From the NCBI GenBank assembly GCA_024638215.1, contig JAHEKS010000007.1, forward strand, positions 1 to 36,397: a stretch of DNA of 36,397 nt, written 5' to 3'. Positions within the stretch are counted from its first letter, which is position 1. The number at the start of each line of letters is the position of its first letter. The notes beneath the pieces are model-generated. The model saw nothing but the letters and a program-made list of their open reading frames with translations, made no database searches and was not told the origin of the DNA. The DNA is from Acidobacteriota bacterium. Its GTDB lineage: Bacteria; Acidobacteriota; Terriglobia; UBA7540. This document shows, piece by piece, positions 22,158-22,630 of this stretch. Position numbers and translations under genes: made by a program.

Positions 22158-22210
22158 CCCTCTCCCTAGGGGAGAGGGTGTCCGTCGTGAGACGGACGGG
22201 TGAGGGGTCA
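22158..22210. repeat. Left inverted repeat of DUF559 unit
   Basis: This arm holds the CCCTCTCCC-TAG-GGGAGAGGG hairpin (22158-22178), a GTCCGTC-GTGA-GACGGAC hairpin (22180-22197) and the 16-bp end shared with the right arm (22195-22210). Confidence 0.8.
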
Positions 22211-22224
22211 GTCCAGGCGTGAGA

Positions 22225-22581
22225 ATGGTGACTCAGGCTGTCCGCGAACTCCGACGGCGGGAAACGACAGGGGAAAGGATTGCATGGAGACTGCTGCGGG
22301 CGCGCCGGTGCGAGGGGCTGAAGTTCCGACGTCAGGTTGCCATTGAAAACTGCATTGTGGATTTCTATTGCTTCGAAAGGCGGCTGGCCGTCGAACTCGA
22401 CGGCAGCATCCATTCGCAACCCAGCCAACGCCGGCGGGACCGCTTGAAGGATCAGTTCCTCGCACGGCTTGGTATCCGAGTCCTGCGATTGCCGAACGGA
22501 CTCGCGATGCAGGCGCCGGAAGAATTCGTTGCGAGGATTAGAAAAGCGGCTCGGGAAATTATGGCGAAAGCCTGCAAGTGA
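22225..22581 (+). CDS. DUF559 domain protein (Vsr/restriction-endonuclease-like fold)
   Basis: The product of about 118 residues is a single DUF559 domain: ELRRRETTGERIAWRLLRARRCEGLKFRRQV, then IVDFYCFERRLAVELDGSIHSQ and QFLARLGIRVLRLPNG. The pattern E...D-F-x-C...E-L-D-G is that of the PD-(D/E)xK-like Vsr endonuclease fold, so nicking of DNA is possible; activity is unproven in this family. The start may be ATG 22225 or GTG 22219, two codons earlier. Its stop codon at 22579-22581 lies within the right inverted repeat. Such genes often occur as lone units between palindromic repeats, as here. It neighbours the divergent AbiJ-like gene, which fits an accessory locus. Confidence 0.85.
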   Translation: MVTQAVRELRRRETTGERIAWRLLRARRCEGLKFRRQVAIENCIVDFYCFERRLAVELDGSIHSQPSQRRRDRLKDQFLARLGIRVLRLPNGLAMQAPEEFVARIRKAAREIMAKACK

Positions 22582-22630
22582 CCCCTCACCCGTCCTGCTT
22601 CGCAGTCTACCCTCTCCCCAAGGGAGAGGG
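22579..22630. repeat. Right inverted repeat of DUF559 unit
   Basis: This arm is the inverted copy of 22158-22210, with the 16-bp identical part at 22579-22594 (overlapping the stop codon) and the hairpin CCCTCTCCC-CAA-GGGAGAGGG at 22610-22630. Confidence 0.8.

Follow-up and report, generated by a model that had tools for sequence, protein, structure and literature searches.

A gene for a DUF559 protein lies between two inverted, REP-like palindromic units in the window analysed here, a 36,397-nucleotide stretch of DNA that makes up an entire contig (C137) of a 4.9-Mb Acidobacteriota genome in 453 contigs, evidently a metagenome assembly. We consider it probable that this arrangement represents a mobile cassette and repeat system resembling REP/RAYT, in which a Vsr-fold nuclease replaces the HUH transposase. 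The pairing recurs across many phyla together with matched, scattered repeats, which suggests a repeat-spreading system of wide distribution that does without the transposase associated with repeats of this kind. At the level of sequence comparison, the association of gene and repeats, its specificity, the dispersal of the repeats, the boundaries of the cassettes and the existence of empty sites are all established below.

The initial annotation had described inverted arms of 52-53 bp around the DUF559 gene, with the stop codon of the gene inside one arm, and both points held up: the arms are 81% complementary over their full length, and the right arm opens with the TGA of the gene at 22579-22581. 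The features of the locus are as follows.

22158-22210, + strand: left arm, 53 nt, with a 9-bp hairpin (22158-22178), a second hairpin of 7 bp (22180-22197) and the tag GGGTGAGGGGTCA (22198-22210) directed toward the DUF559 gene
22219-22581, + strand: DUF559 (PF04480) gene, 120 aa, predicted Vsr/EDxHD-fold nuclease
22579-22630, - strand: right arm, an inverted copy of 52 nt, with tag, small hairpin and 9-bp hairpin; holds the DUF559 stop codon
22631-22686, + strand: spacer and degraded third unit (CTTTCCCCGAAGGAGAGGGG...GGGTGAG); the right side is a doublet, comparable to that on contig C197

The open reading frame matches PF04480 with an E-value of 1.4e-27 and has an alternative start at ATG 22225. 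The inverted repeat that spans it reaches a score of 25.5, whereas none of 1,886 random placements over the whole window exceeds 16.0. The outer hairpin CCCTCTCCC-N3-GGGAGAGGG was found in both arms, as had been reported, and an identical inner end is also present, at a length of 17 nt (22194-22210 and 22579-22595) rather than the 16 originally given. Folded as a single strand, each arm forms the 9-bp outer hairpin, a second small hairpin and then the tag (z -3.1 to -5.0). The earlier statement that only the middle of the arms differs is correct for the sequence, but each middle still folds as a hairpin of its own, with 7 bp on the left and 4 bp on the right. Of the 61 distinct middles collected from the loci, 33 contain a perfect stem of 5 bp or more, compared with 3-5% of shuffles, and 26 distinct stem sequences occur among them; as judged from these sequences, the second hairpin is conserved in structure and not in sequence. 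Each arm is a REP-like unit, consisting of a 9-bp hairpin, a second hairpin and the tag. A degraded further unit (at about 22650-22686) continues the right arm and gives the right side of the locus a doublet form, as in the dispersed copy on C197. Among the neighbours, a gene with an AbiJ N-terminal domain 4 (PF18863; 21198-22055), possibly encoding an abortive-infection protein, adjoins an NYN-domain gene (20455-21120). Other dispersed repeats at 23434-23510 (AAGCGGCGGCAAGCCGCCGC...) and 23534-23557 (GGGGCGGGTTTCGAAACCCGCCCC) have matches elsewhere in the genome, and the former is present in many relatives as well.

The Vsr-like fold previously proposed for DUF559 was borne out by the AlphaFold model of the protein (pLDDT 88, pTM 0.82), whose structure matches are the gonococcal DUF559 protein NGO0050 (3HRL), the homing endonuclease I-Bth0305I and, more weakly, Vsr. 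A sequence profile likewise matches 3HRL and I-Bth0305I (3R3P), with PDB profile matches of E > 0.1 counted as chance. Six residues (E19, D48, E59, D61, H65 and D74) are invariant in 53 DUF559 members. Taking the modelled fold together with these conserved acidic and histidine residues, the protein is, by prediction, a Vsr/EDxHD-fold nuclease. A study of Caulobacter reports that a methyltransferase mutant needs VsrA, a DUF559 protein, for its DNA-damage response (PMC12907096), which indicates that proteins of the DUF559 family are able to act on DNA in vivo.

The genome holds a single DUF559 gene, but the exact outer hairpin occurs in it 14 times, spread over 11 sites of which 10 lie away from the locus; a reversed control pattern of the hairpin has no match in it. 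The search for arm copies without the gene that the initial annotation had suggested was therefore positive, with ten or more other sites. Most of the dispersed copies lie within longer units of the form ACCCCTCACCC-hairpin-CCCTCTCCCnnGGGAGAGGG-hairpin-GGGTGAGGGGT, and those in five sequences of this genome (L002, L011, L013, L014 and L015) run in frame within long open reading frames. Several of the repeat-bearing frames are Ser/Thr kinase genes by motif, with repeat peptides such as PLTPSPSPQGRGW. These in-frame copies resemble the Rickettsia palindromic elements. Another genome (G365) has doublets at six unrelated sites, each about 150 bp long, whose ends match while their spacers vary; units of this kind also lie next to a DUF559 gene in G365.

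The association is not confined to this genome. The nearest DUF559 relatives of the locus are in Acidobacteriota MAGs, and among 77 usable DUF559 loci (79 fetched from named genomes), 49 have spanning inverted repeats scoring at least 16, compared with 3 of 765 control placements. When hairpins were defined generically (perfect stems of 7 bp or more with one pyrimidine arm, no further than 300 bp from the gene), they were present on both sides of 82 of 119 DUF559 loci from many phyla, compared with 1 of 585 controls and 1 of 30 Y1 loci, a strong linkage where the initial annotation had allowed for arms that occur at random, unlinked to DUF559. At least one side carries such a hairpin at 108 of the 119 loci (controls, 41/585), and the remaining 11 have none under this definition. 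Spanning repeats occur at 23 of the 25 best Hymenobacteraceae DUF559 loci; the arms were not seen at the weaker, mostly multi-domain DUF559 matches of the Acidobacteriota sample (L056-L065).

Whole genomes tell a similar story. Strong DUF559 genes (E<1e-20) were found in 20 of 199 Acidobacteriota genomes, and type A or type B hairpins are present in 16 of these 20 as opposed to 11 of the 179 others (p 3e-13). In Hymenobacteraceae (121 genomes; the family of the Pontibacter locus L152), type B hairpins are present in 84 of 108 genomes with DUF559 and 2 of 13 without (p 1.6e-5), and copy numbers correlate with a rho of 0.42. Repeat-rich strains of the Pontibacter/Hymenobacter type reach 60-100 copies. 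Related genomes, treated as independent in these tests, are not so, and one genus supplies 8 of the 20 strong Acidobacteriota genomes; the Fisher values therefore overstate the evidence. In two genomes of one genus, G011 and G039, DUF559 was not detected although type A hairpins number 11 and 27, respectively; loss of the mobiliser gene or the action of another mobiliser would account for this. A palindromic repeat beside a Sinorhizobium DUF559 gene (L166, 4290-4465) recurs at up to 27 places per replicon in plasmids of Rhizobium, Sinorhizobium and Shinella, and is possibly a RIME element.

The repeats are also specific to the protein that they accompany. No genome among the 199 Acidobacteriota combines type A with type B. 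On a tree of 128 DUF559 proteins, which has few columns and many open forks, 6 changes of arm type (A/C versus B) are needed, compared with 25.5 when labels are shuffled, and the pattern holds within single phyla (Acidobacteriota, 2 versus 6.0; Bacteroidota, 4 versus 11.5). Acidobacteriota proteins with type B arms group among the Bacteroidota proteins with type B arms. Repeat type, as far as this sequence-based tree resolves it, tracks the DUF559 tree and not the host phylum.

Mobility is shown, by comparison, in several homologous cassettes. Two cassettes of one MAG (L094 and L121), 84% identical, have a common sequence running from about AAATCCAACCACC to GGGGTGGTTGATT; their flanks are unrelated on both sides, and the breaks fall at the tags. 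Another pair (L115 and L119) has 572 bp in common, ending at the outer repeat ends. In Sinorhizobium, one gene junction holds a cassette (L167) made up of repeats, a DUF559 gene and an IS, and the corresponding junction in Shinella (L177) is without it; another Sinorhizobium cassette (L166) is missing from L178. In Synechocystis, a DUF1156 gene is split by a DUF559 cassette, where the Planktothrix gene is whole and has a 29-residue segment at that place. Empty sites, the absence of which had been named as an adverse outcome, thus exist for homologous cassettes. None was found for the window's own locus among 40 relatives, because no relative matched both sides together. The combination of terminal inverted repeats bounding the unit with empty sites, a feature of insertion sequences and MITEs, was seen for the homologous cassettes, not for this locus. 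Target-site duplications were not obvious by eye at the L094/L121, L115/L119, Sinorhizobium or Synechocystis junctions.

Other comparisons were set apart from these. An S. meliloti sequence (L173) was rejected as an empty site because it retains the 5' part of the gene, which indicates a deletion, and the Sphingobium locus (L172 versus L175) was set aside because pieces of its flanks are duplicated. A phage or plasmid origin was likewise discarded, with one weak phage match and few plasmid matches. The Synechocystis DUF1156 gene also bears a short in-frame repeat (PSPRPSPTGRG; L171, 6310-6360), which, like the cassette, is absent in Planktothrix (L179). In two Hymenobacteraceae genomes, the DUF559 cassettes (L220 and L233) are oppositely oriented in otherwise syntenic flanks, and the breaks lie close to the arms.

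RAYT proteins are believed to act on REP sequences and so to spread them (PMC3116915). As the simplest account, we propose that the locus is a compact mobile cassette, with a nuclease gene between two inverted REP-like units, and that its PD-(D/E)XK-type nuclease may stand in for the HUH tyrosine transposase. The DUF559 protein would recognise its cognate hairpin-plus-tag units, probably while these are extruded or single-stranded during replication, and would cut at or beside them. Such a cut could let the gene-bearing cassette copy or move to new sites, and gene-free units, as singlets or doublets, would be copied or moved far more often than the cassette itself. We infer DNA binding, cutting and the path from a cut to a new copy.

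The main rival to this proposal is that DUF559 is a free-standing homing endonuclease, which cuts repeats spread by other means and is copied into these pre-existing repeats by repair. The fold and profile match to I-Bth0305I and the presence of the DUF559 gene nearly always at repeats agree with such a reading, and repeat-rich genomes without DUF559 (G011 and G039) keep it alive. It leaves unexplained, however, why repeats are rare where DUF559 is absent. Several cassettes, moreover, are inserted at sites that are repeat-free in relatives, and the units on either side of the gene are complete and for the most part inverted rather than halves of one split site. We consider homing unlikely.

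It is decidedly improbable, in our view, that DUF559 is a Vsr-like nuclease of host repair or quality control and that the hairpins are terminators or RNA elements independent of it. Gene-adjacent hairpins can indeed terminate transcription, and the Caulobacter study proposes a role in short-patch repair for its DUF559 protein (PMC12907096). Terminators, however, would explain neither the mirror-image units and in-frame dispersed copies nor the matching of repeat type to protein clade and the bounded cassettes with unrelated flanks. The Rfam matches that might have marked an RNA element or terminator were all below threshold.

The notion that RAYT-like Y1 transposases (TIRYT) spread the repeats, with DUF559 as a passenger between them, is the least probable and is largely refuted: Acidobacteria do have TIRYT genes with flanking inverted repeats, some with the motif GGGGWSAS (PMC3733652), with which GGGGTGAG is compatible, and 125 of 199 Acidobacteriota genomes have Y1 genes, but type A/B palindromes occur at 0 of 30 Acidobacteriota Y1 loci, where Y1 loci do have repeats, these differ in class (GCCGCGTAGCGGC...TTTAGCCGTGG) and are often found in the same genomes, a Y1 gene is absent from G011 despite its 11 repeats, and repeat type follows the DUF559 tree. 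Y1 and DUF559 systems coexist with separate repeats. The Acidobacteriota Y1 genes examined (L189-L206) often have long inverted repeats of that other class, GCCGCGTAGCGGC...TTTAGCCGTGGGTGAAGCCCACGG.

Few small repeats are as common in bacteria as those of the REP-like kind, and for several REP-like families there is, to our knowledge, no known mobiliser. The association described here ties a large, multi-phylum group of repeats to DUF559, a family named for its unknown function. If the proposed mobile cassette system is real, DUF559 would gain a biological role to set beside an already solved structure (3HRL). The system would also account for in-frame inserts rich in Pro, Ser, Gly and Arg in some bacterial proteins. 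More broadly, and with rather less assurance than for the cassette itself, DUF559/EDxHD nucleases could be the movers of a distinct class of mobile palindromic repeats in multiple phyla, by a route unlike that of HUH enzymes, and perhaps the missing enzyme of orphan families such as RIME-like and in-frame elements. An earlier link between DUF559 and palindromic repeats was not found in the accessible open-access literature (preprints and subscription papers fall outside this scope), nor was any combination of Vsr or endonuclease genes with palindromic repeats in open-access papers. A Legionella report lists transposase/DUF559 segments as recombination hotspots.

Among known systems, Vsr and the DUF559-containing VsrA of Caulobacter share the fold, but the targets of Vsr are T:G mismatches, and Vsr is associated with a methyltransferase; the Caulobacter study attributes VsrA to mismatch repair, not repeats, and its accessible text reports no repeat association (PMC12907096). 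The EDxHD homing endonuclease I-Bth0305I is alike in fold and sequence profile, whereas genes of that kind reside in an intron or intein; the DUF559 gene is free-standing between its repeats and tied to a dispersed repeat family, and an Rfam scan of 21900-22800 gave no intron above threshold. Rickettsia palindromic elements and rhizobial RIME are likewise palindromic repeats, some in frame within genes, but the accessible literature assigns them no mobiliser; rhizobial DUF559 genes adjoin abundant palindromic repeats, which are candidate RIME elements. A 2013 survey described RAYT-like genes with terminal repeats and the GGGGWSAS motif, Acidobacteria included (PMC3733652). The likeness to REP/RAYT (REPtron, REPIN) suggested by the initial annotation, which as a whole is partly supported, lies in a small nuclease gene between inverted, tagged palindromic units, in many gene-free singlets and doublets, some intragenic, and in a repeat type that matches the protein clade. 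The differences are a PD-(D/E)XK, Vsr-like protein in place of the HUH Y1 transposase, two hairpins per unit, and a tag of GGGTGAGGGG (or GGGGTGGTT) in place of GTAG. With both a Y1 transposase gene between the repeats and the GTAG tag absent, the DUF559 locus falls outside REP/RAYT, although it probably works in a similar way.
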